A DNA stretch of 42,798 nt, taken from positions 1 through 42,798 of the forward strand of contig JAJDBH010000168.1 in assembly GCA_029261455.1 (NCBI GenBank), given 5' to 3'. This DNA is from Nitrospinaceae bacterium. GTDB taxonomy: Bacteria; Nitrospinota; Nitrospinia; Nitrospinales; VA-1. The position numbers and the translations under genes were made by a program. The stretch's first letter is position 1; every line of letters begins with the position of its first letter. Below the pieces are notes generated by a model. It had not been told where the DNA came from and searched no databases. It saw nothing but the letters and a program-made list of their open reading frames with translations. Positions 5,119-16,873 of this stretch are shown one piece after another.

Positions 5119-6354
5119 CTATTTTAGAAGGCCTTTTCCCTTTTCCAAGGTTTGGACACTTTCGCGCATTTTCCACAAAAGCACCAGTCCTGGTAGCGCG
5201 GCTAGAAATGTGATCAGGAAAAATAACAGCCAGCCAAACTCATCGACCAGAACACCCGATGTTGGCCCCACAAACACCCGCCCCAAGGAAGCTAATGCCG
5301 ACAACAAGGCAAACTGCGTTGCGGTAAAGTTATGGTTACACAACGCCATCAAAAATGCCACGAAAGCCGCAGTCCCCATCCCGCCGGCCAGATTTTCAAA
5401 ACCTATGGTGAAAACCAACATTGGATAACTCTTTCCGAGCATAGCCAATACCATGAATGATAAATTCGAAACAGCCTGTAAAATTCCAAAAAGTAAAAGT
5501 GAGCGAAAAAGACCCAAACGAGCCATGAGAGCACCGCCAAATAGTGCCCCCACTATCGTTGCGACAAGCCCCATACCTTTATTTATGGCCCCAACTTCAC
5601 CGACAGAAAACCCCACTCCTCGAATCAAAAAGCTTGTGGTCAGGCTCCCCGCAAAGGCATCGCCCAGTTTATAAAGAACGATCAGCGCCAGCATCGCCCA
5701 AGCACCCTTCCGTGAAAAGAATTCAACCAAAGGGCCGCTAACAGCCTCCTGCAAGGTTTTAGGTGGCGTCCCAGGATCTTCGGGCTCGGGACCCAGCCAA
5801 GTTGCCGTCATTCCCAGAACCATCAATACTGCCATAACCATATAGGTTGATTGCCATCCCAAAATACCTGACAAGATCAAAGCCAGTGCCCCGGAAATCA
5901 GCATCGCAATTCTATATCCAGTGACCGAAACTGCCGCCCCCAACCCCCGCTCTTTCTCCCTCAGCACTTCTGCCCGGTAAGCATCGATAACGATATCCTG
6001 CGAAGACGAAGCAAACGCTAAGCCAAAGGCGAAAAAAGCAAGCAACCAAGGAGTCTTAGCGGGAGAAATCATACTCATCGCAAAAATCAAAATGAGCAAT
6101 AAAACCTGAAACACCAAAATCCAACCCCGTCTACGACCAAATAAAGGAAAAGCAAATCGGTCAAGCAGTGGAGACCAGAGAAACTTCAACGTATATGGCA
6201 AACCCACCAGAGTGAACAAGCCAATGGTTTTGATATCTACTCCTTCCACAGTTAACCAGGCCTGCAAGGTCCCCCCCGATAATGCCAGAGGAAGACCAGA
6301 GGAGAACCCTAAAAACAAAATGGTTGCCACTCTGCGGTTTAAAATTGAACTCAT
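5119..6354 (-). CDS. ampG: AmpG-family MFS permease (muropeptide transporter-like)
   Basis: This 411-residue polytopic inner-membrane protein has about 12 predicted hydrophobic segments and the AmpG hallmark SSQDIVIDAYRAEVL around residues 116-131. AmpG imports anhydro-muropeptides from the periplasm for peptidoglycan recycling. The N-terminal motif GFSSGLPLAL and the FLWSPLLDR loop fit the family too. The length is shorter than E. coli AmpG (491) but usual for the broader family. A hydrolase gene follows 12 bases downstream. No ampD or beta-lactamase gene is near, so recycling is the likelier role than resistance signalling, and a different solute cannot be excluded. Confidence 0.8.
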   Translation of the reverse strand: MSSILNRRVATILFLGFSSGLPLALSGGTLQAWLTVEGVDIKTIGLFTLVGLPYTLKFLWSPLLDRFAFPLFGRRRGWILVFQVLLLILIFAMSMISPAKTPWLLAFFAFGLAFASSSQDIVIDAYRAEVLREKERGLGAAVSVTGYRIAMLISGALALILSGILGWQSTYMVMAVLMVLGMTATWLGPEPEDPGTPPKTLQEAVSGPLVEFFSRKGAWAMLALIVLYKLGDAFAGSLTTSFLIRGVGFSVGEVGAINKGMGLVATIVGALFGGALMARLGLFRSLLLFGILQAVSNLSFMVLAMLGKSYPMLVFTIGFENLAGGMGTAAFVAFLMALCNHNFTATQFALLSALASLGRVFVGPTSGVLVDEFGWLLFFLITFLAALPGLVLLWKMRESVQTLEKGKGLLK

Positions 6355-6655
6355 AAATACTCAATAAAATTAGCTAGTTAAGGTGATTCACTTGACAAAT
6401 AAGGACAAGTTAAAACCGGGCCTATTGTTGTTATTCAAACCCCTTATAACATTAACGCTGTGGAGTTTCAGGAAATTTACTTGGAACACCAGACCTGTTT
6501 TGCCAGTATGGGCAATTGACATCTGGTAACATCATTAAATAAAATTGAATTATAGAGCCATGATTACAGCGGGGCACGATACCTATAAATTCTTGTTTTT
6601 ATATAACCTTTTCTTGCTTTTTTACCGATATGCAGATGAACCAAGAGACTAAATT
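6355..6655. other. Divergent intergenic region between ampG and the motor operon
   Basis: This 301-base region holds no credible gene. It carries one good sigma70-like promoter pointing to motB (6516-6545). A second TTGACA at about 6394 has no convincing -10 box at the usual distance. No clear CRP-type site was seen. Confidence 0.6.
6516..6545 (+). promoter_or_regulatory. Predicted sigma70-like promoter of the motB-cyaA-motA operon
   Basis: TTGACA (6516-6521), an 18-base spacer and TAAAAT (6540-6545) give a near-consensus promoter. Transcription would begin near 6552, about 100 bases upstream of motB. It is seen by consensus only. Confidence 0.5.
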
Positions 6656-8233
6656 ATGAAAAACATGGAATCCCTGCAACTGGTCAAAGAGCAACTCAAA
6701 ATAAAGGCAGTCGAGTTGCGCAAAGCCCACGAAGAAAATGGGAACGTTAAAAAACAAATTAAGGACTTGATCACCTTTAATCAAACTGAAGTGAAAAAGC
6801 TCAAAGAGGTTGCCAAACAAGCCGAGGCAGAAGCTACTGAGCAAAAAAGTCAGGCAGAGGCAGCCCGTCTCGCAAAACATGTTGGAGTAGAAGCCGGTAA
6901 AAAGGAAAAGAAAGAAGAGGAAGCCGAAATGTCCTCGCGCATAGAAGCTAAAATGGACGATAAAATGAAGGGCAAAATGCTCGAGCTTACTAACCGAGTC
7001 GATGCTCTCCGGGAGCGCGTTGAAAAAGAAAAAGGTACCAATAAAAAGTTTTCACGAGAGCGCGATGTTTTGATGAAAGAGTTAAAACGTCTCCGGCAAG
7101 ATACAGGAACCACTGACAACCTGAAAAAGAAGATTGAAGGTCTAAAGGCAGAGCTAACCAAAGCCAAAAGAACTTCCATGTCATCGGGTACTGTCACAGA
7201 GGATATTGTTAAAGAAAAAGACACACTCATTAAAAAATATGAAGACATGCTTTATGGCGGTATGGATGCAGGTGAAGACGGGATGCTGCCCTCTGAAATA
7301 ATTCAGGAACTGAAGGAAGAAGTCGAGGACTTGGAAAAAGAGCGCCGCAGAATGATCGTTGACATGGAAATGCTCAAAGAAGACAACGCCGAAATGGACA
7401 TGAAAATCACCTTAATGGAAGAGGAAAAAGGTCGGTCCGGTAAGAGTGGTGGCGGTGATGGTGGTGATTTTCGCCCTGTTGAAGGCCGCTCAGCACAGAC
7501 CTCTGAGTTCTCGGGGGGATTGGAAAACTTTCTCATCACCTATTCTGACATGATCACACTAATTCTGGTGGTCTTTGTATTGATGTACAGCGTATCAAAG
7601 TTGGACGAAAACAAGTTTGCCGAGGCTCTTTCATCGTTCCAAACTAAAAGAATGCGTATTGAAAGCGTCAATGTTCGCTTGAGCAAAGCAGAAATGAAAA
7701 TGCTAGAGCGTGTAAGAGAATTAGTTAAAGACAATGTTGATGCAGAAAGCCTTGCCCGCAGTGATACGCGGACTATTCTTCACCGTCTGCCTACCTCAGA
7801 CCTATTTGATCCTGGCGAAGCCTTCTTCAGTGAGGGTGCCGAAGACCTTATCATTTCCACAATCAAGGAAGATATGCAGGAAGGTGTCAAACAGGTCATG
7901 GTTGATGGCCACACTGATAACGTTCCAATGAAGAGTGCCAAGTATCCTTCAAACTGGGAACTTTCGGCTGCCAGAGCCTCGAAGGTGGCTCGATTTATCA
8001 TAGAAAAAATGCGCTTTCCACCAGACCGAATTGTCGTGACAGGCTACGGGGAATTCCGACCTATTAAAGAAAACATAAGCGATGATAACCGTGCCGCTAA
8101 TCGCCGGGTCGAAATCAAAATCTTGAAAGCACTTGAAGTTGCGAAAGATGAGGCCAAAAAACCGAGGAAAAGAACTCCAGCACGGGGGAAAAACGAAGCT
8201 TCTAGTTTGAGTTTGAAACAACCTGCTAAATAA
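6656..8233 (+). CDS. motB: MotB-like stator protein with a long cytoplasmic coiled-coil extension
   Basis: This 525-residue protein has an unusual order of parts. Residues 1-255 are highly charged, Glu/Lys-rich heptad sequence predicted as coiled coil; a Gly/Ser linker follows (260-272). A single membrane segment (about 296-315) begins with NFLITYSDMITL, where D298 matches the proton- or sodium-binding Asp of MotB (D32 in E. coli). The C-terminal OmpA-like peptidoglycan-binding domain (about 380-490) has VDGHTDNVP, NWELSAARA and NRRVEI. Ordinary MotB has only about 30 residues before the membrane segment, so the 280-residue extension is the odd feature. It is first in a run with a class I adenylate cyclase, motA and a pentapeptide gene. 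No flagellar genes are in the window. Confidence 0.9.
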   Translation: MKNMESLQLVKEQLKIKAVELRKAHEENGNVKKQIKDLITFNQTEVKKLKEVAKQAEAEATEQKSQAEAARLAKHVGVEAGKKEKKEEEAEMSSRIEAKMDDKMKGKMLELTNRVDALRERVEKEKGTNKKFSRERDVLMKELKRLRQDTGTTDNLKKKIEGLKAELTKAKRTSMSSGTVTEDIVKEKDTLIKKYEDMLYGGMDAGEDGMLPSEIIQELKEEVEDLEKERRRMIVDMEMLKEDNAEMDMKITLMEEEKGRSGKSGGGDGGDFRPVEGRSAQTSEFSGGLENFLITYSDMITLILVVFVLMYSVSKLDENKFAEALSSFQTKRMRIESVNVRLSKAEMKMLERVRELVKDNVDAESLARSDTRTILHRLPTSDLFDPGEAFFSEGAEDLIISTIKEDMQEGVKQVMVDGHTDNVPMKSAKYPSNWELSAARASKVARFIIEKMRFPPDRIVVTGYGEFRPIKENISDDNRAANRRVEIKILKALEVAKDEAKKPRKRTPARGKNEASSLSLKQPAK

Positions 8234-8322
8234 CCATTGGGGCCTGTTCTATTTTGAGGCAGTTTTTTAACAGTTTTTAGAGTAAAATTACTAATAAATC
8301 CTAAAACCAACGTTCTTTAGTT

Positions 8323-10515
8323 ATGGAATCAACTGAAAAACCTAACATCAGCCAGACGGAAGCTCCTATTTTAGATGAGGCTCCCCAAAAACCTGATATT
8401 GCGCCAAAGATATCGAAAGAAGCCATTGAAAAGGCTCAAAAAGTACTCAATAAAACAGATGAGGAAATGCTTTTTTCGAACCGGCAGGATTTTTTAATGT
8501 TCAACAGATTTAAAATAGATCGAAACTTGATCACCCTTTCTGAAATTGACCGCCTGATTTTTCTGGTTGCTCCACGCCTGCTTCACGTTCACCAGGAAGG
8601 CCTGCCCGGTTATTTTGAAGGTGCCCCCCCCTGCGGCATTCATAACTTCAATTTGGACAGGGAATCACAAGTAGCCGCTGAAAAATTGTTCCCGGACGTC
8701 ATCATTCGCAGAAATCCTGAACTGAAGCCAGTCATCCACACCGCATTGCTCATGGGCAGTGTCGGCTCTATTGCTCAAACCAAAAAATCTGATCTCGATT
8801 ACACCCTGCTGGTAGACAAAAAAGATTTCACCGAAGAAAGTATGAAACTGTTTCAAAAAAAGCTGAACTTGATAGAAACATGGACCTGGGACAACTTTAA
8901 ACTTGAGACCCATTTTTTCATTAATGATTTTGAAGAAGTTAAAAACAATATCTTCGGTGAAAGTGACAGTGAAAGCACTGGATCCGCTCTGGCCAAACTC
9001 CTGAAAGAAGAAATGTATCGAACCATGATCATTGTCAGCGGAAAAATACCATTCTGGCTGATTGCTCCGGTAGATTGTGATGACGATCGATATTACGAAT
9101 TATATGAAAAGTTACTAACCGGGAAAACCCTGCTCAAAAAAGAAGAGTTCATCGATATGGGTAATGTTGATGATATCTCTCAGGGAGAGTTTTTTGGTGG
9201 ATCAATTTGGGCTCTTATCAAATCTTTCAAATCGCCTTTCAAGACGCTCATGAAAATGGGGGTCTTAGAAGAATACATGTTTGGTGACACGAAATCGAAC
9301 CTGCTATGCCATCAAATCAAAGACAAATACTTTAACGATATCCCTTATCTTGACATAGACCCCTATCTGGGAATGTTTGAACGAGTACAAAAGTTTTTTA
9401 CGGAATCAAAATCAGAAGAAGAAGTCGATGCGTTGAGACATGCCTTCTACTTGAAGGTGGGCACCCAGGTCACCGCAGATGAATACGAAAAAGGGTCGGA
9501 TATTTGGAGAAAGAGCACCCTGATCAAAATGCTTAAAGAGTGGGGATGGAGTGCAGAGAAAATTGAAAAACTGAATCAGTATTCCAACTGGCAAATGATG
9601 CACAAGGTAGACTTGGGAAACCGCATCAATAAAATTTTGATGGCTTCCTATAAAAATATTTCTGAAAAGAACAAGACCCTTGATCCCAGCGAAAGTTTGA
9701 TCACCGAGAAGGACACTCATCTTTTGGGTCGAAAGCTTTTCAGTTTCTACAGAGCCGCTCCCAACAAAGTTGATAACCTGGGCGCTTTGGTCGATGGTAA
9801 AACTGCTGAAAATGAATTGACTTTTATTTTGGAACAGAAAAGTAGGACCGACAAACCAGAGTGGTACCTTGTTCGAGGCAGAACCCGGGCTTTTCTGGAG
9901 CAAATTGACAAAGAGGATATTATCAGGAAATCTTCAACCCTTCCATTCCTTCTGGCTTTCACCGTTTTCAACAATCTTTACAGTGAAAAAACTGAAGTTT
10001 TATTAAGATCTGAAGGGGACAGCATCAAAGAAAATGATTTGATTGCACTACTAAAGATACTCAAAAACTTTATCGAGTCCGTCAACATCGCGGCGCTGTC
10101 TAATGAAGATTTACTGGGCGATGCAAAAATCAACCAGTTATTCCTGCTAGTGGACTTTGGCAATCCTCCGCCACCAGAAATCACTATGGGAAATATCAGA
10201 GACTGCAGAAACAACGATGAATTAAATCAATTTATCAACAAACGAATCGAACGGACCAAAAGTATCACCGCTATTTATTTGACCTCATGGGGTGAACTTT
10301 TTTGCAAATCGTATGCAGGATTAAACTGTATGCCTCGATGCATCACCGAACTGAGCGCCCAAATGAGCCCGGAAAGGGTTGAAAGATTGGATTTTCTTAA
10401 GGTTTACATCCCCAGCGGCCGAAAAGAAATATTACAGATACATTGGCTGAACAACTATATATCGCGTTCATTAAAGATTCGAGCCACGGCTCACATGGGA
10501 AAAGCCGCCAGTTAA
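8323..10515 (+). CDS. cyaA: Class I adenylate cyclase (CyaA family)
   Basis: This 730-residue protein matches the catalytic half of enterobacterial class I adenylate cyclase, which makes cAMP from ATP. The nucleotidyltransferase motif MGSVGSIAQTKKSDLDY (144-160) carries the metal-binding D157 and D159. Further family blocks are EEMYRTMIIVSGK (229-241), FFGGSIWALIKSFKSPFK (290-307) and IDPYLGMFERV near 346-356. The C-terminal half (about 430-730) differs from the E. coli regulatory domain as far as I can judge, and the protein is shorter (730 against 848). The first about 50 residues look disordered. It lies 89 bases after motB and 35 bases before motA on the same strand, which is unusual company. 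No strong Shine-Dalgarno precedes the ATG. Confidence 0.88.
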   Translation: MESTEKPNISQTEAPILDEAPQKPDIAPKISKEAIEKAQKVLNKTDEEMLFSNRQDFLMFNRFKIDRNLITLSEIDRLIFLVAPRLLHVHQEGLPGYFEGAPPCGIHNFNLDRESQVAAEKLFPDVIIRRNPELKPVIHTALLMGSVGSIAQTKKSDLDYTLLVDKKDFTEESMKLFQKKLNLIETWTWDNFKLETHFFINDFEEVKNNIFGESDSESTGSALAKLLKEEMYRTMIIVSGKIPFWLIAPVDCDDDRYYELYEKLLTGKTLLKKEEFIDMGNVDDISQGEFFGGSIWALIKSFKSPFKTLMKMGVLEEYMFGDTKSNLLCHQIKDKYFNDIPYLDIDPYLGMFERVQKFFTESKSEEEVDALRHAFYLKVGTQVTADEYEKGSDIWRKSTLIKMLKEWGWSAEKIEKLNQYSNWQMMHKVDLGNRINKILMASYKNISEKNKTLDPSESLITEKDTHLLGRKLFSFYRAAPNKVDNLGALVDGKTAENELTFILEQKSRTDKPEWYLVRGRTRAFLEQIDKEDIIRKSSTLPFLLAFTVFNNLYSEKTEVLLRSEGDSIKENDLIALLKILKNFIESVNIAALSNEDLLGDAKINQLFLLVDFGNPPPPEITMGNIRDCRNNDELNQFINKRIERTKSITAIYLTSWGELFCKSYAGLNCMPRCITELSAQMSPERVERLDFLKVYIPSGRKEILQIHWLNNYISRSLKIRATAHMGKAAS

Positions 10516-10550
10516 TTCTAAAGCTTTTTACCTCAGTTTGATCAAATTCT

Positions 10551-11378
10551 ATGGCCACAGCAACTCAAGAAGCACAAGGCACAGCCGCAAACGTTGCTCA
10601 GGAAGAACGTCAGGATACAGGAATAGACACTGGCACCCTGATGGGAGTCCTTGCAGGGATTTTTCTCATTGCTGTGGCAATCGTTCGTGGTGGAGATGCA
10701 GGGGTTTTCATCAATATCAACAGTGGCCTGATCGTAGTGGGAGGTTCAATAGCAACAGCTTTTATCGCATTTCCTGCAAAGAAGATCACCACACTGATGC
10801 CGGTTTTATACAATGCCTTCAAACCTGGCGTTTATGAACCCGAAGATTATGTCGATGACATCATGAGGTTGGCCTCTAAATATCGTTCCGGCGGTATGAA
10901 ACAACTGGAAAATGAAGAAGGCAAAGTAGATAACCGTTTTTTGAAAAACGGAATAGCAATGATCGTGGATGGCTACAATGCTAAAGAGATTCACGAACTT
11001 ATGGACCGGGAAATGAACGCTATGCTCGACCGGCACAATTCCGGGCAAAAGGTTTTACGTTTCATGTCCGTTCAAGCCCCTGTATTTGGTATGGCAGGCA
11101 CCCTGATCGGTCTGGTACAGATGTTAATGCATATTGACGATCCATCAACTATTGGCCCTGCTCTGGCTACTGCGTTGATCACTACTTTTTATGGCCTCAT
11201 GCTGGCCAACCTCGTTCTCACTCCACTTGCAGCAAAACTGAGCATGAGAACAGATATGGAGGGTGTTTTGGGCAGGTCAATTCGAGTAGGTATCATTGGG
11301 ATTCATGACAGGGTCAATCCGCAAAAAATCCAGCGGAACATGAACGCGCTCCTACCACCATCGCAACAGAGGGAATAA
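10551..11378 (+). CDS. motA: MotA-like stator subunit
   Basis: A 275-residue inner-membrane protein of the MotA/TolQ/ExbB family. Four membrane segments are visible (about 28-45, 55-75, 172-193, 203-225) with a cytoplasmic loop of about 95 residues between the second and third. The conserved stator segment APVFGMAGTLIGLVQML has P177 (P173 in E. coli), and TPLAAKL holds the second conserved proline, P225. It lacks the long cytoplasmic tail of Zorya-type ZorA. Paired with the MotB-like protein it should form an ion-driven 5:2 stator unit. The pentapeptide gene begins directly after its stop codon. Whether it powers a flagellum, gliding or another rotor is not decided by the window. Confidence 0.9.
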   Translation: MATATQEAQGTAANVAQEERQDTGIDTGTLMGVLAGIFLIAVAIVRGGDAGVFININSGLIVVGGSIATAFIAFPAKKITTLMPVLYNAFKPGVYEPEDYVDDIMRLASKYRSGGMKQLENEEGKVDNRFLKNGIAMIVDGYNAKEIHELMDREMNAMLDRHNSGQKVLRFMSVQAPVFGMAGTLIGLVQMLMHIDDPSTIGPALATALITTFYGLMLANLVLTPLAAKLSMRTDMEGVLGRSIRVGIIGIHDRVNPQKIQRNMNALLPPSQQRE

Positions 11379-12230
11379 ATGTCAAACGTTGATGAGATGA
11401 TCACATTAGTTCTGAAAGAGCCCAAGCAGGATGGGGCCGATTTCAGCGGTTTCGACTTAAAAGGCATGAGCCTCAATGGTGCCAGCTTTGTTTATGCCAC
11501 GTTGGTTGAGGCAAATATAGACGATTCCGAACTACGCGAAATAGACTTTTCCCAGGCTTCACTGGAAAAATCGTCTATGAAAAACGCCAAGATTAAAAAC
11601 CTGAACTTTACGGGAACGAACCTTGAAGGGGTCAATTTTGAAGGTTCCACTCTAATAGATTGTAATTTTAAAAATGCCAATCTAACTAGTTGCGATTTTT
11701 CTCAAACCAAAATAACCGACTGTGATTTCCAGGGAGCAAACCTGGGCCATGCCAGCTTTTATTCCGCCACTATAGATAACTGTAATCTGGCATTTGCCCG
11801 AATGATGTACACTTTTATGAAACAAGTTGTCATCAATAAATCTCGCTTGGGAGGCATCAATGCACGAGGTTCCGACTTCAGCTTTTCCAAGTTGACCGAA
11901 GTGGACTTAAAAGGTTCCATCCTTAAATATGCGGATCTTAATTCCTGCACCTTTAAAGATGTAAATTTGAGCAACGCAAACCTGATTGGCGTGGAGTTAA
12001 AAGACGCTCAATGCAAAGAGATTGTTTGGGAAGAGGCCAACCTTGAAGGGTCCGACCTGACTTACGCCAATATGGAGGGAGGCAATCTTAAAAATGCCTT
12101 TCTTCTGGAAGCCAATTTACATGGCACCAACTTCACTAATGCCAACCTTGCAGACGCATATCTGGTGGACGCTAACATTGCGAAAGCGATCACCAAGGGA
12201 GCAAACCTGGAAAACACCATCCTGGCCTGA
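11379..12230 (+). CDS. Pentapeptide-repeat protein
   Basis: A 283-residue protein made almost wholly of A(N/D)LXX pentapeptide repeats from about residue 18 to the end, for example DFSGFDLKGMSLNGASF and ANLEGSDLTYANMEGGNL. Such proteins fold as right-handed quadrilateral beta helices. There is no signal peptide or membrane segment, so it is probably cytoplasmic. Its ATG follows the motA stop with no gap, making it the last gene of the motor operon, and its stop is 8 bases from that of the opposing lipoprotein gene. A scaffold or interaction role with the stator or cyclase is inference from position; Qnr-like DNA mimicry is an alternative I see no specific support for. Confidence 0.88.
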   Translation: MSNVDEMITLVLKEPKQDGADFSGFDLKGMSLNGASFVYATLVEANIDDSELREIDFSQASLEKSSMKNAKIKNLNFTGTNLEGVNFEGSTLIDCNFKNANLTSCDFSQTKITDCDFQGANLGHASFYSATIDNCNLAFARMMYTFMKQVVINKSRLGGINARGSDFSFSKLTEVDLKGSILKYADLNSCTFKDVNLSNANLIGVELKDAQCKEIVWEEANLEGSDLTYANMEGGNLKNAFLLEANLHGTNFTNANLADAYLVDANIAKAITKGANLENTILA

Positions 12231-12238
12231 ACAACTGC

Positions 12239-13117
12239 TTATTTCTCTTCAATGATAATTTCCGACGCGCACCGGAATCCCACATTCTCAAAAAAATCAT
12301 TCGGGTTGGCCTCGGTGCGGGTGAATGCAAAACGATAGGCATCCAAAAAATAATGCCCTGCCTTCTGGAACCCATTTCCCCTCAAGACTTTCAGCTCTCT
12401 ACCAAACCTTGAATTCGACTTTGTGTTTCCGGGATAAGGAAGATACCAGTCCAGAGTCCATTCCATAACATTGCCCGATAAGCCATAAATTCCATACGGA
12501 CTAACATCTTCAGGATAGGCGGTAACCAATGCAGTTTTTCGGTCTCCATCAATACCCAGGTTTGACTTACCTTTAACAAACTCTTTTCCCCACGGATATG
12601 GCAGACCATCTGGACCTCTAGCTGACTTTTCCCATTGCGCTTCTGTGGGGAGTTGTTTTCCCGCCCACATACAATAAGACCATCCCTCCCACCAAGTAAC
12701 TTGTGTGACTGGATGCAAAGCTTGCTCTTCAGGGAAACTGCCGTCCTCCCAATGGGCAGGCCGGTCAGTGAACTGAGTGGCTGTGAGGAACTTTAAATAC
12801 TCTGCATTGGTCACTTCATAACGATCCATATAGAACGGTCCCAAAAAGAGTTTTTGCTCTGGATGCTGATCGAGATAAAGAGGTTTAACCGCGCCAATTT
12901 TTTTATGCGTACCCTCCGTATCGACCTTGTCCGTTCCCATGATGAATTCACCAGAAGGAACCAAAACCATCTCTTTCTGATCTCTCTCCGAAACCTTTAT
13001 CGGAGTTAAAATATCTTTCTCACAGTCGCATAACTCACACCCCGAAAGAAAAAACAAAAGCAATATAAAAACAGCTGGGGTATAGTTTTTAAAATTGATA
13101 CGAGAACAATTCACCAT
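12239..13117 (-). CDS. Lipoprotein with formylglycine-generating-enzyme (SUMF1-like) fold
   Basis: A 292-residue lipoprotein: a hydrophobic signal, then lipobox LSGC with C27. The FGE-sulfatase domain runs from about 45 to 288, with MVLVPSGEFIMGTD, the YEVTNAEYLKFL block, LPTEAQWEKSARG, GNVMEWT and the terminal VGFRCASE. The paired Cys residues of true formylglycine-generating enzyme are not seen at the RG-FQKAGHYF-DAYR segment, so sulfatase-activating catalysis is unlikely and a binding or structural role is inferred. ATG 13117 and GTG 13114 are both possible starts; AAGAGG lies 4 and 7 bases upstream of them, the latter spacing being better. The ATG overlaps the start codon of the divergent propeller gene. 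Confidence 0.8.
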   Translation of the reverse strand: MVNCSRINFKNYTPAVFILLLFFLSGCELCDCEKDILTPIKVSERDQKEMVLVPSGEFIMGTDKVDTEGTHKKIGAVKPLYLDQHPEQKLFLGPFYMDRYEVTNAEYLKFLTATQFTDRPAHWEDGSFPEEQALHPVTQVTWWEGWSYCMWAGKQLPTEAQWEKSARGPDGLPYPWGKEFVKGKSNLGIDGDRKTALVTAYPEDVSPYGIYGLSGNVMEWTLDWYLPYPGNTKSNSRFGRELKVLRGNGFQKAGHYFLDAYRFAFTRTEANPNDFFENVGFRCASEIIIEEK

Positions 13118-14300
13118 GCGACCTCTTAAATTTATAATTAAAACCTTCGTCATTATATTCATTTTTAGTGCTGGTGCTAGCTTTATCGCTGTTGACACCG
13201 CTAGTGCTTTCAGTGTGTCGATTTCGGACAAAACTTCAGGGGAGCCCTACCCTCATATCCTGAAAAAGCAAACCTTTGACCTAAACACCAGAAACATTAA
13301 AGTTCTGACCTCTCAAGGTCGGTACCTATGGATGGGGACCGGGCTGGGAGTCATCCGCTACGACACTAACGCCAACGATAACTATGAAGTCTACGACAAC
13401 CAGAATCATTTACTCAGCAATGGAATTTTTTCCATCGCTTTTGATTCACAAAACTTGCCGTGGATTGGAACCTACGGTGGCGGACTCAGCCACCTTAACG
13501 GTCATGAATGGACCCATTTCAACACACCGCAAGGTTTGAACGATGCCTTTGTCTACGACATAGAGTTCGACAAAAATGTTCTTTGGCTGGCAACCTGGAG
13601 CGGTGTGAACCGGGTGACTGGAAACCCCTCAGAGAGGAAAAACTGGCAAAGTTTTACAGTGGAAAATACCGAGGGCGGCTTGATCGATGACTGGGTTTAC
13701 GCTGTTGAAATTGAATCCGCAGAAAAAATCTGGTTCGGCACAGAGTCTGGAGTCTCTTCTTTTCAAAATGGAAAATGGCAAGCCTTCAATCATAAAGATG
13801 GACTCGGAGCACCCTACGAACAAGTACAGCGAGAGAATCAGGGAATTATGTCACTCTTTCAAGGCCAGCATCACTCCGCCCAGGCATCTCCTTCTATTCC
13901 CAATCTACAAACCTCGGACTACCGCCCAAATTATGTCGTCTCCATGCTACTGGACGAGAAAAAACGTTTGTGGATAGGAACCTGGGGAGGAGGCTTGAGT
14001 CTACTCGATACCCAAACCCTGACCTTTCGAAATTTCACCATAAAAGATGGACTACCGGGCAACTTCATCCTCTCACTGGAACTAGATAAATCAGGAGGGT
14101 TGTGGATAGGCACCAATGATGGACTGAGCCGTTTCAACGGCAAAACCTTTCTAAACTTTTCTGCCATCAATGGACTCAAATCAAAATTCATTTTCAGCAT
14201 CGAAGCAGCCTCCGACCATTCATTATGGGTGGGAGGCAATAGTTCTCTCACACGGTTGCTTCTCGACCCCAAAACCGGCATCCCGATCAATATCAAATAG
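13116..14300 (+). CDS. Exported Reg_prop (two-component-regulator propeller) repeat protein
   Basis: A 394-residue exported protein with a signal peptide (about 1-31, ending near TASAF) and a beta-propeller of repeated LW(I/M)GT-x-GG blades: WMGTGLGVIRY, WIGTYGGGLSHL, WLATWSGVNRV, IWFGTESGVSSF, LWIGTWGGGLSLL, LWIGTNDGLSRF and LWVGGNSSLTRL. Reg_prop domains normally form the periplasmic sensor of hybrid histidine kinases, but here there is no membrane-anchored kinase part, so this is a stand-alone propeller that may bind a glycan or a partner. The start is chosen to fit the signal peptide; an in-frame TTG lies 21 bases upstream. It is head to head with the lipoprotein gene, with which it may share a role. 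Confidence 0.8.
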   Translation: MRPLKFIIKTFVIIFIFSAGASFIAVDTASAFSVSISDKTSGEPYPHILKKQTFDLNTRNIKVLTSQGRYLWMGTGLGVIRYDTNANDNYEVYDNQNHLLSNGIFSIAFDSQNLPWIGTYGGGLSHLNGHEWTHFNTPQGLNDAFVYDIEFDKNVLWLATWSGVNRVTGNPSERKNWQSFTVENTEGGLIDDWVYAVEIESAEKIWFGTESGVSSFQNGKWQAFNHKDGLGAPYEQVQRENQGIMSLFQGQHHSAQASPSIPNLQTSDYRPNYVVSMLLDEKKRLWIGTWGGGLSLLDTQTLTFRNFTIKDGLPGNFILSLELDKSGGLWIGTNDGLSRFNGKTFLNFSAINGLKSKFIFSIEAASDHSLWVGGNSSLTRLLLDPKTGIPINIK

Positions 14301-14854: not shown

Positions 14855-16873
14855 ATGAACAGATTAGCTACTCAACAACAAGTTTCGAAATCAGGTTTTT
14901 TTAGTCTATTTGAAAAAGGGAAAAATCATCAAATTGAATTAGAGAAAGAAAGAGAAAAGCAGCTTGAATTGCAAGCAAAACTAAATGCCATTGACAAATC
15001 TCAGGGCACTATTGAATTTAATTTGGATGGAACAGTCATCACGGCCAATGAAAATTTTTTAAATGCCATGGGTTATACATTGAAAGAGGCGATAGGCCAA
15101 CATCATAGAGTTTTTTGCGAACCTTCCTATGCAAAAAGTAATGAGTATAAAATGTTTTGGGAAAAACTCAATCGAGGCGAGTTTGATGCCGGGGAATACA
15201 AGAGAATCGGAAAAGGCGGAAAAGAGATTTGGATTCAAGCTACCTACAATCCAATTTTTGATTCACACAATAAACCTGTAAAGGTAGTAAAGTTTGCCAC
15301 GGATATTACTGAACAAACGATGAAGAATGCCGAGTACGAGGGAAAAGTAGATGCCATTGGAAAATCTCAAGGCACTATTGAGTTTAACATGGATGGAACA
15401 GTCATCACGGCCAACGATAATTTTTTGAAGGTTATGGGGTATACCTTGAATGAGGGGGTTGGTCAGCATCATAGAGTTTTTTGCGAACCTTCTTATGCAA
15501 AAAGCAATGAGTATAAAATGTTTTGGGAAAAACTCAATCGTGGTGAGTTTGATTCGGGAGAATACAAGAGAATCGGGAAAGGTGGAAAAGAAATTTGGAT
15601 TCAGGCTTCATACAACCCGATCTTTGACTTGAACGGCAAACCCTTCAAGGTCGTAAAATTTGCTACCGAGATTACTAAGCAGAAGATGGAGGCAGCTGAA
15701 AGCCAGGCGAAACTGGATGCCATTGACAAGTCTCAGGGTACCATTGAGTTTAATATGGATGGCACTGTCATTACGGCCAACGATAATTTTTTGAAGGTTA
15801 TGGGGTATACCTTGAATGAGGGAGTTGGCCAGCATCATAGAGTTTTCTGCGAACCTTCATATACACAAAGCAATGAATATAAAATGTTTTGGGAAAAACT
15901 CAACCGGGGGGAATTTGATTCCGGGGAATACAAGAGAATAGGAAAAGGCGGAAAGGAAGTTTGGATTCAAGCTACCTATAACCCGATATTGGATTTAAAC
16001 GGTAAAGTCTTTAAGGTTATAAAATTTGCTACAGACATAACTGAGAAGAAGAAGATGGAGGAAAAAATCAAATCTGTAATGGAGAAAGTATCAGAAAAAG
16101 CACAGACCCTTGCCGGAGCCTCGGAGGAGTTGACCGCTACCAGTCAGCAGATGTCTGCCAATGCTGAAGAAACTTCGGCTCAGTCCAATGTTGTCTCTTC
16201 TGCTGCCGATCAAGTGAATCAGAATATTCAAACAGTGGCTACGGGCTCAGAGGAAATGAGTGCAAGCATTAAAGAAATCGCGAATAATGCCAATCAAGCT
16301 ACCAAAGTCACCAGCGATGCGGTTGAACTGGTTGAGACCACAAATAAAACAGTGACCACATTGGGCGAAAGTTCGACAGAGATTGGCCAGGTCATCAAGG
16401 TCATTACCTCCATAGCTGAACAGACCAACCTTCTTGCCCTAAATGCCACAATTGAGGCGGCACGTGCTGGTGAAGCTGGGAAAGGATTTGCAGTTGTTGC
16501 GAATGAAGTTAAGGAACTGGCCAACCAGACAGCTAAAGCGACTGAAGACATCAGCAACAAGATTCAGGCTATTCAAACAGATACTGAAAGTGCTGTTTCG
16601 GCTATTGGTGAGATCAGTACGGTTATTGGGCAGATCAGTGATATCTCCAACACCATTGCCAGCTCGGTGGAAGAACAGTCAGCCACAACCAACGAGATCA
16701 CTCGTAATGTCGCAGAGGCTTCCCGAGGGTCTCAGGAAATTGTCGAGAACATTTCGAGTGTGGCTAAAGCAGCTCAAAGCACCAACGAAGGTGCCTCCCA
16801 TACTCAGCAAGCCGCAGGAGAATTAGCAAAAATGGCAACAGATCTACAAAATATTGTTGGAGAGATGAACTAG
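14855..16873 (+). CDS. Soluble methyl-accepting chemotaxis protein with three tandem PAS domains
   Basis: This 672-residue chemoreceptor has no signal peptide or membrane segment, so it should act in the cytoplasm. Three PAS domains (about 42-163, 164-285, 286-400) repeat every 122 residues with near identity, each with [41 protein letters not shown] and KRIGKGGKE. This is the PAS type found in aerotaxis- and redox-sensing receptors, though no cofactor ligand can be assigned with certainty. The C-terminal signalling hairpin (about 410-672) contains the kinase-contact tip [21 protein letters not shown] terminal pentapeptide tether for CheR is absent. No che genes are adjacent. GGAG and AAGGAAG precede the start. 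Confidence 0.93.
14978..16054 (+). repeat. Three tandem 366-bp PAS-coding repeats
   Basis: Units begin near 14978, 15344 and 15710 with a period of 366 bases (122 codons). Long stretches are identical at DNA level, so the amplification is recent or kept alike by gene conversion. The second and third units are closest to each other, sharing GYTLNEGVG where the first has GYTLKEAIG. Confidence 0.9.

Follow-up and report, generated by a model that had tools for sequence, protein, structure and literature searches.

We analysed a stretch of DNA of 42,798 bases, called the window below, which is the whole of contig C168 of a Nitrospinaceae bacterium genome (G000, 84.5% complete). Between positions 6656 and 12230 it carries four genes on the plus strand, in the order motB, cyaA, motA and pentapeptide-repeat gene: the two genes of a flagellar-type stator, a class I adenylate cyclase gene between them, and the gene of a pentapeptide-repeat protein (Table 1). 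This arrangement, described in a first-pass annotation made from the letters of the window, was confirmed by the open reading frames (ORFs) and their Pfam domains. The gaps are 89 bases from motB to cyaA, 35 from cyaA to motA and 0 from motA to the pentapeptide gene, which does abut motA as had been noted. There are two candidate starts for motB, 6656 or 6665, and a promoter-like element of the sigma-28 (FliA) type stands before it. Both flanking genes lie on the opposite strand. The nearest named relatives of CyaA come from metagenome-assembled genomes labelled Nitrospinaceae, Nitrospinota or Nitrospina sp., which places the window among these nitrite-oxidising bacteria.

Table 1. Features of the operon and its flanks in the window (aa, amino acids).
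Feature	Position	Strand	Details
MFS gene	5119-6354	-	
Sigma-28 (FliA)-type promoter-like element	6604..6631	+	TAACC-N15-ACCGATAT; 52 (start) to 25 (end) bases 5' of the motB ATG
motB, type 3 (long)	6656-8233	+	525 aa; MotB_plug 53 bits (287-330), OmpA 58 bits (384-483)
cyaA, class I adenylate cyclase	8323-10515	+	730 aa; PF12633 Adenyl_cycl_N 154.7 bits, PF01295 Adenylate_cycl 256.4 bits
motA, type 3, PomA/MotP-like	10551-11378	+	275 aa; PF01618 MotA_ExbB 90 bits; aligned with types 1 and 2
Pentapeptide-repeat gene	11379-12230	+	283 aa; PF00805 169 bits
FGE-sulfatase gene	12239-13231	-	

The cyclase domain PF01295 is present in 56 of the 77 genomes of the phylum. Besides the window it was found at 61 places, 56 of which could be read with their flanks, the other five being cyaA fragments at contig ends; 47 of the flanked loci belong to the order of the window, Nitrospinales, and nine to other orders of the class. 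The arrangement motB-cyaA-motA-pentapeptide is found at 31 of the 47 (with a split motB in one, L058), and at three more the contig ends before motB. At 11 loci cyaA is followed by the pentapeptide gene without motA, and at two (L035 and L040) divergent stator genes stand 5' of cyaA. The complete arrangement spans four families. Conservation at 31 of the 47 other Nitrospinales loci, with three more cut by a contig end, excludes chance as the source of the arrangement. Among the fragments, those of G051 and G038 are split between a contig with motB-cyaA and another with cyaA-motA-pentapeptide, and that of G066 shows an internally deleted motB followed by cyaA. Across loci the gaps range from -8 to 23 bases between motA and the pentapeptide gene, from -178 to 35 between cyaA and motA, and from 24 to 220 between motB and cyaA; the strongly negative values between cyaA and motA probably stem from over-long predicted starts. 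At all nine loci from the other orders cyaA stands alone, with neither a stator gene nor a pentapeptide gene beside it by blastp (a few contigs are short), and no such neighbour was seen at the 16 named loci outside the order that were examined among 75 (L154-L166, L170, L179 and L181, from other Nitrospinota, Tectomicrobia, Alteromonadales and Desulfobacterales). The arrangement, which might have been a peculiarity of a single genome, is thus order-wide, but it was not seen beyond the order (0 of 9 loci).

The constant pair of this operon is cyaA and the pentapeptide gene. The latter follows cyaA or motA on the same strand at all 47 loci of the order, and the protein itself is matched at E <= 1e-50 in 49 of the 77 genomes of the phylum, all within the order. 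As for the stator genes, we placed the loci without intact copies on a maximum-likelihood tree built from 56 CyaA sequences, one fragment being excluded, where they correspond to at least four changes on well-supported branches: g15/g16, g8, G034 and G059. G034 retains degraded pieces of both motB and motA, separated by an unrelated ORF which looks like a transposase. G059 has lost motA (there is a 143-base gap); the contig ends within its motB, of which a C-terminal piece is present, so that only the loss of motA is counted there. The second copy in G043 (L040) keeps motA remnants between cyaA and the pentapeptide gene, with a divergent, contig-cut motA in front. The stator neighbours in G032 are divergent (48% identity for MotA, 33-37% for MotB) while the identity of cyaA is kept at 75%, and the second G043 copy is similar. 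An apparent stator swap would account for L035 and L040, the original motA being decayed in the latter. Since motA, motB or both were lost or decayed on at least four branches where cyaA and the pentapeptide gene were kept, the cyclase is independent of a stator of the window type.

The element before motB has the same spacing as that of a flagellin gene of the same genome (L245), TAAAG-N15-CCCGATAG. Flagellin genes of this group carry TAAAG-N15/16-CCGATA, which fits the sigma-28 consensus, and the pattern TAA-N17/18-CCGATA is present at 25 of 30 flagellin loci. TAA-N18-CCGATA has a single match in the window (6604-6630), 25 bases 5' of the motB start, for 0.28 expected; 23 of 100 shuffled windows have at least one. 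The element stands 5' of motB at 20 of the 31 loci, 20-26 bases from the start and in 8 of the 12 genera. The pattern TAA-N17/18-CCGATA precedes 4 of 277 neighbour genes (all DUF1566) and none of 114 cyaA (at motB-bearing loci), motA and pentapeptide genes. The p value of the enrichment before motB, 6e-20, is only descriptive because the pattern was chosen after the motB sites had been seen. In 1,565,356 bases of sequence, with some overlap between the pieces, the N18 form has 52 distinct sites: 20 before motB, one before the rearranged operon L035, two before a broken motB, 17 before flagellin ORFs and 12 elsewhere; as the loci were sampled around such genes, these proportions are not genome-wide. 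The two broken genes where the element persists are the decayed motB of L046 and the internally deleted motB of L190. At about 2 kb from flhA (G000, contig C49) there is a FliA-family gene which scores above the curated cut-off. With its flagellin-like element, the window operon would belong to the sigma-28 (FliA) regulon. The single promoter claimed for the four genes holds as far as sequence tells: there is no sign in it of separate transcription and the sigma-28-type element is absent before the three downstream genes, other kinds of promoter being possible. A sigma-70 site, TTGACA-18-TAAAAT at 6516-6545, was not kept as evidence because the scan found 3 such sites for 10.5 expected. The DUF1566 genes near the operon (L064, L076, L080 and L081) have the sigma-28-type pattern upstream at 4 of 24 loci; this may be due to chance, or they may be a further late-flagellar gene.

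We compared the occurrence of cyaA with that of flagellar genes in 64 genomes of the order. Both cyaA and FlhA are present in 49, cyaA only in one, FlhA only in six and neither in eight (Fisher p 5.5e-6); with FliG the corresponding counts are 46, 4, 6 and 8 (p 2.2e-4). When the comparison is restricted to the 28 genomes which are at least 90% complete, they become 23, 0, 2 and 3 with FlhA (p 0.003) and 22, 1, 2 and 3 with FliG (p 0.011). The two FlhA exceptions in this set are G030, whose FlhA is broken by a stop codon, and G029, in which no cyaA was found and the contig ends 250 bases from motB. As a control, the adjacent MFS gene tested against FliG gave p 0.31. Among the cyaA-less genomes of the order, site inspection covered G030, G031, G049, G065 and G029. 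The first four, which come from three genera and have lost or degraded flagella, still have the MFS and FGE genes close to each other and the four genes between them are gone: the gap is 750 bases in G030, 2643 in G031, 756 in G049 and 670 in G065, with unrelated ORFs in three of them, and tblastn (E 1e-3) found no remnant of the four genes there; the genomes are 98%, 97%, 95% and 72% complete, respectively. G049 has neither FlhA nor MotB and retains FliG and FliA; G030 retains one flagellin-like match. Taken together, order-wide conservation, the sigma-28-type element and the loss with flagella support a functional link between the cyclase operon and flagella. The first-pass annotation had suggested that cAMP (cyclic AMP) production is tied to stator assembly or ion flow. 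What stands of this proposal is the link of the cyclase with flagella; that stator assembly or ion flow should be needed for cAMP production is not supported, since on at least four branches cyaA and the pentapeptide gene outlast motA, motB or both.

Catabolite regulation in gammaproteobacteria is the role for which class I cyclases are mostly known. The CyaA of the window shares with these enzymes both Pfam domains, above their cut-offs of 27 bits, a nucleotidyltransferase-like fold and the GS-x9-SDxD motif, here GS-x9-SDLD with GS at residues 145-146 and SDLD at 156-159. Residues G145, S146, S156, D157 and D159 are invariant in the 18 sequences of alignment A1, and GS and SDxD are present in the window protein and in all 47 of its relatives in the order; the GS and DxD residues are thus intact, as had been announced. 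It differs from the class I norm by the position of its gene, within a stator operon and beside a pentapeptide partner, and by two features of the protein. First, it covers positions 1-419 of the 601 of PF01295, positions 420-601 being unmatched, which means that part of the C-terminal region of the profile is missing; the full-length PF01295 region is that of the enteric-type class I cyclase. Second, the residue following SDxD(Y/F) is Thr in the window and in the 47 relatives within the order, and Trp in all 18 sequences from outside it (one of which has SAID replacing SDxD). The motif of the pocket is intact, yet the neighbouring residue is changed throughout the order. Against the NCBIfam model NF006981 the protein scores 446 bits, under the cut-off of 802. 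The model of CyaA (pLDDT 82.5, pTM 0.75, from 18 sequences) has spectinomycin/streptomycin adenylyltransferases as its top Foldseek matches (best E 1.9e-3, probability 0.84-1.00 for that group); there was no Foldseek match under E 0.001, and the HIV reverse transcriptase chains lower down are noise. A nucleotidyltransferase fold is the one expected for class I cyclases, and no solved structure is related to CyaA by sequence. The C-terminal half, which had been put forward as a candidate sensor, gave no further domain by Pfam or NCBIfam, and nothing but nucleotidyltransferases and unrelated weak matches in the fold search, so that the proposed sensor found no backing there. In a phage collection, four records have a CyaA match, all from Salmonella/Escherichia.

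The cyaA gene of the window is the sole PF01295 match in its genome, as far as this incomplete assembly goes. It is not the sole cyclase, a possibility which we rejected since class III cyclases exist: they are found in 15 of 21 genomes tested, with two in G000 and none matched in the cyaA-bearing G034 and G059. Proteins with a cyclic nucleotide monophosphate (cNMP) binding domain, PF00027, were counted in 12 genomes: there are 28 in G000, 5-43 in seven cyaA-bearing genomes, and 0, 0, 0, 3 and 6 in five cyaA-less ones. We scanned ten of these proteins for domains, six of them from G000. The G000 set consists of a cNMP-PAS-histidine kinase-receiver protein, two cNMP-PAS proteins, a cNMP-LuxR-type regulator and, at contig ends, a cNMP-PAS-GGDEF protein and a Na+/H+ exchanger-like protein with a cNMP domain (L224). 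From their family, these proteins would bind cAMP; as class III cyclases are present in 15 of 21 genomes, they may serve more than one cyclase. Two loci of G000 have adjacent stand-alone cNMP-binding genes of 119-141 codons, three at L220 (4922-6594, contig C167) and four at L221 (3994-5639, contig C141). In four genera, the ordinary flagellar motAB has, at a distance of about 10 kb, a gene for a protein of about 800 residues with two cNMP domains (L215, L216, L217 and L218); one of the two such proteins scanned has a metallo-beta-lactamase match.

The window stator carries the sequence features of a flagellar stator: the MotA_ExbB domain, the MotB plug, the channel Asp (Asp298 of MotB, invariant in the 14 sequences of alignment A2) and the OmpA domain. 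Its best NCBIfam models are PomA for MotA (201.5 bits, below the cut-off of 341) and MotS for MotB (also below cut-off), and it thus resembles stators of the PomAB/MotPS type in these sub-cut-off matches, the plug, the channel Asp and the OmpA domain. Unlike them, its MotB begins with an additional stretch of about 285 residues, predicted to be cytoplasmic and helical, ahead of the single hydrophobic helix (292-310), and its genes are separated by cyaA with motB coming first. MotA aligns with ordinary MotA except for a short N-terminal extension and has no long cytoplasmic tail. The model of MotB shows long helices with low confidence (pLDDT 64.5, pTM 0.27), and its quality was too poor for conclusions to be drawn from it. 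There are three MotB_plug matches in G000, which is incomplete: besides the window set, an ordinary motA-motB (268 aa) behind a receiver-HD protein (L092), and motA followed by a long motB (530 aa) and a PilZ gene (L091, 10133-12927, contig C67). FlhA co-occurrence and the sigma-28-type element favour a role of the window stator in driving the flagellar motor, for which two other motAB sets are available in this genome too. A PilZ-like gene follows the long motB at eight of nine loci (L091, L095, L100, L102, L104, L189, L200 and L201, not L098), the assignment being by Pfam for L091 and by similarity to that gene elsewhere; this suggests a stator linked with cyclic di-GMP (c-di-GMP). At two of these loci, both in family f4 (L095, 6101-8215, and L100, 10711-12822), a cNMP-domain gene lies directly 5' of the PilZ-linked stator. 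The product is a cNMP-PAS-GGDEF-EAL protein by Pfam at L095 and a cNMP match at L100, so that a route from cAMP to c-di-GMP to the stator is possible in this family. The long MotB of this second type and that of the window have the N-terminal motif KEQL/KEQV..K..EL in common, as well as a long N-terminal stretch, neither of which is found in the ordinary type 1. In G034, a receiver domain is fused to the MotB N terminus (L097, 4219-6351, contig C32; 711 aa), so that signal input through the N terminus of MotB is possible in that genus. Elsewhere in the window, at 14855-16873, an MCPsignal chemotaxis-type signalling protein has three closely similar PAS domains.

From these results, the operon is probably a late-flagellar transcription unit of the sigma-28 (FliA) type, which would couple cAMP synthesis to the flagellar programme with the stator as an optional companion. 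Once the hook-basal body is finished, FliA would become active and the operon would be expressed along with the flagellins, giving a third stator set (long MotB and MotA), the class I CyaA and the pentapeptide protein, the last being probably a scaffold or a regulator of CyaA. The predicted cAMP would be read by the many cNMP-binding proteins, among them the c-di-GMP enzymes of the cNMP-PAS-GGDEF(-EAL) type, the cNMP-linked kinase, the cNMP Na+/H+ exchanger-like protein and many single-domain proteins, and could in this way tune motility, down to swimming itself, as well as energetics. The stator would accompany this cAMP module and need not be its sensor. Co-expression of the pair that would make cAMP with the last stage of flagellar assembly is the most economical mechanism that we can propose.

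Several observations weigh against this interpretation. The Fisher tests treat related and incomplete genomes as independent, and FlhA was scored as present also for weak fragments (G053, G054 and G021) and for the broken gene of G030. Six genomes bear FlhA without cyaA, and FliA is retained in the cyaA-less G049 and G023. The element is absent 5' of motB at 11 of the 31 loci: four in g4, four in g7, one in g5, one in g13 and one of the three in g14, the last having a near-match, CCGTTA. Of the seven g15/g16 loci where cyaA comes first, five have a CCGACA variant at -135, one has the exact form at -86 and one (L061) has none; both g8 loci are without the element as well. A weight matrix trained on 14 flagellin promoters gives the window site a score of 4.4, which is under several control sites. 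Above a score of 12 it retains, of the motB sites, only that of L066 (19.7), along with three neighbour-gene sites and one site internal to motA (L048, 13.2); we dropped this matrix as too narrow in favour of the TAA-N17/18-CCGATA pattern. The change from Trp to Thr beside SDxD throughout the order leaves the predicted synthesis of cAMP from ATP in doubt and unproven. Finally, as class III cyclases exist (two in G000), cAMP may also come from enzymes other than CyaA.

A tighter coupling can be imagined: the cytoplasmic helical extension of the long MotB would be a docking site for CyaA, together with the pentapeptide protein, and CyaA output would depend on the engagement of the stator, its load or the flow of ions. 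The place of cyaA between motB and motA at 31 of 47 loci, the motif shared by the two long MotB types, the receiver fusion of G034 and the P. aeruginosa stator protein MotC, which in passages of one paper binds and stimulates the c-di-GMP cyclase SadC (PMC12288467), all point this way. Against it stand the branches, at least four, where motA, motB or both have decayed or are absent and the cyclase and pentapeptide genes persist, and the divergence of the stator beside a well-kept cyclase in G032 and in the second G043 copy; the MotB model is too poor to help. We hold such gating to be unlikely; a physical stator-cyclase switch is an attractive special case which is unsupported. It is slightly less likely still that the arrangement is a genomic accident, a housekeeping cyclase and its partner sharing a promoter with a stator, and that the loss of the four genes reflects streamlining in genomes which discarded cAMP signalling for other reasons. 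The five cyaA-less genomes that were studied in most detail are indeed small (1.4-2.6 Mb as assembled) with few or no cNMP-binding proteins, and class III cyclases are absent from four of them, as also from two cyaA-bearing genomes. However, these small genomes still have the MFS gene and other flanking genes wherever this was examined, the sigma-28-type element stays before cyaA after the breakage of motB (L046 and L190), and the gene order is kept across four families. We would give no better chances to a bolder scheme in which the cytoplasmic coil common to the two long MotB types is a docking port for second messengers, one stator being wired to cAMP through CyaA and the pentapeptide protein and another to c-di-GMP through the PilZ gene and, in one family, the cNMP-PAS-GGDEF-EAL gene: CyaA would report the state of the motor and cAMP-controlled c-di-GMP enzymes would feed back on the other stator. 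That the operon is a Zorya-type anti-phage stator (ZorAB being relatives of MotAB), with the cyclase and the pentapeptide protein as effectors, is hardly credible and was rejected after a test of the four proteins of the operon: MotB has weak matches to ZorB profiles (67 bits at most), but when these four proteins were run through PADLOC the other three gave no match and ZorA was not matched, the MotA of 275 aa has no long cytoplasmic tail such as ZorA has, the flanking genes, where ZorC/ZorD or ZorE would be the neighbours, carry other Pfam domains (flanks by Pfam, PADLOC on the operon proteins only), and the locus is stably inherited and lost with flagella. A nucleotidyltransferase/pentapeptide pair of the Hailong type was likewise set aside, the HalA match being weak (residues 66-137, 40.7 bits for a cut-off of 250) and CyaA being without a match in the 2023 PADLOC library.

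The late-flagellar cyclase operon that we favour has two partial parallels. In passages describing the MotCD-SadC-FlgZ system of P. aeruginosa, a stator is associated with a c-di-GMP cyclase and a c-di-GMP-binding protein (PMC12288467); common to both is a second-messenger enzyme linked with one of several stators, whereas the messenger there is c-di-GMP and the link was made by binding and genetics, and here it would be cAMP, with a link made by genomics. In V. cholerae AJ10, passages of another paper describe an axis from CyaA through cAMP to the sodium motive force, where a class I cyclase raises the output of the flagellar motor via Na+ antiporters (PMC13079933); G000 has a cNMP Na+/H+ exchanger-like protein. 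The input there is light, and those passages mention no stator operon. In the open PMC literature, subscription papers being outside the scope of the search, we found no description of the motB-cyaA-motA-pentapeptide arrangement, and nothing on Nitrospina with adenylate cyclase; by word search, the main text of the N. gracilis genome paper (PMC3578206) contains neither "flagell-" nor "adenylate".

In marine nitrite oxidisers, a conserved cyclase operon linked to flagella would be a case of cAMP serving as a late-flagellar signal. An unstudied pentapeptide protein would gain a concrete partner, and directed tests could be designed for the numerous cNMP-binding proteins of this ecologically central group. 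Moreover, the repeated loss of the stator with the cyclase kept, and the repeated loss of the four genes with flagella, constitute a natural experiment on the purpose of the cyclase.

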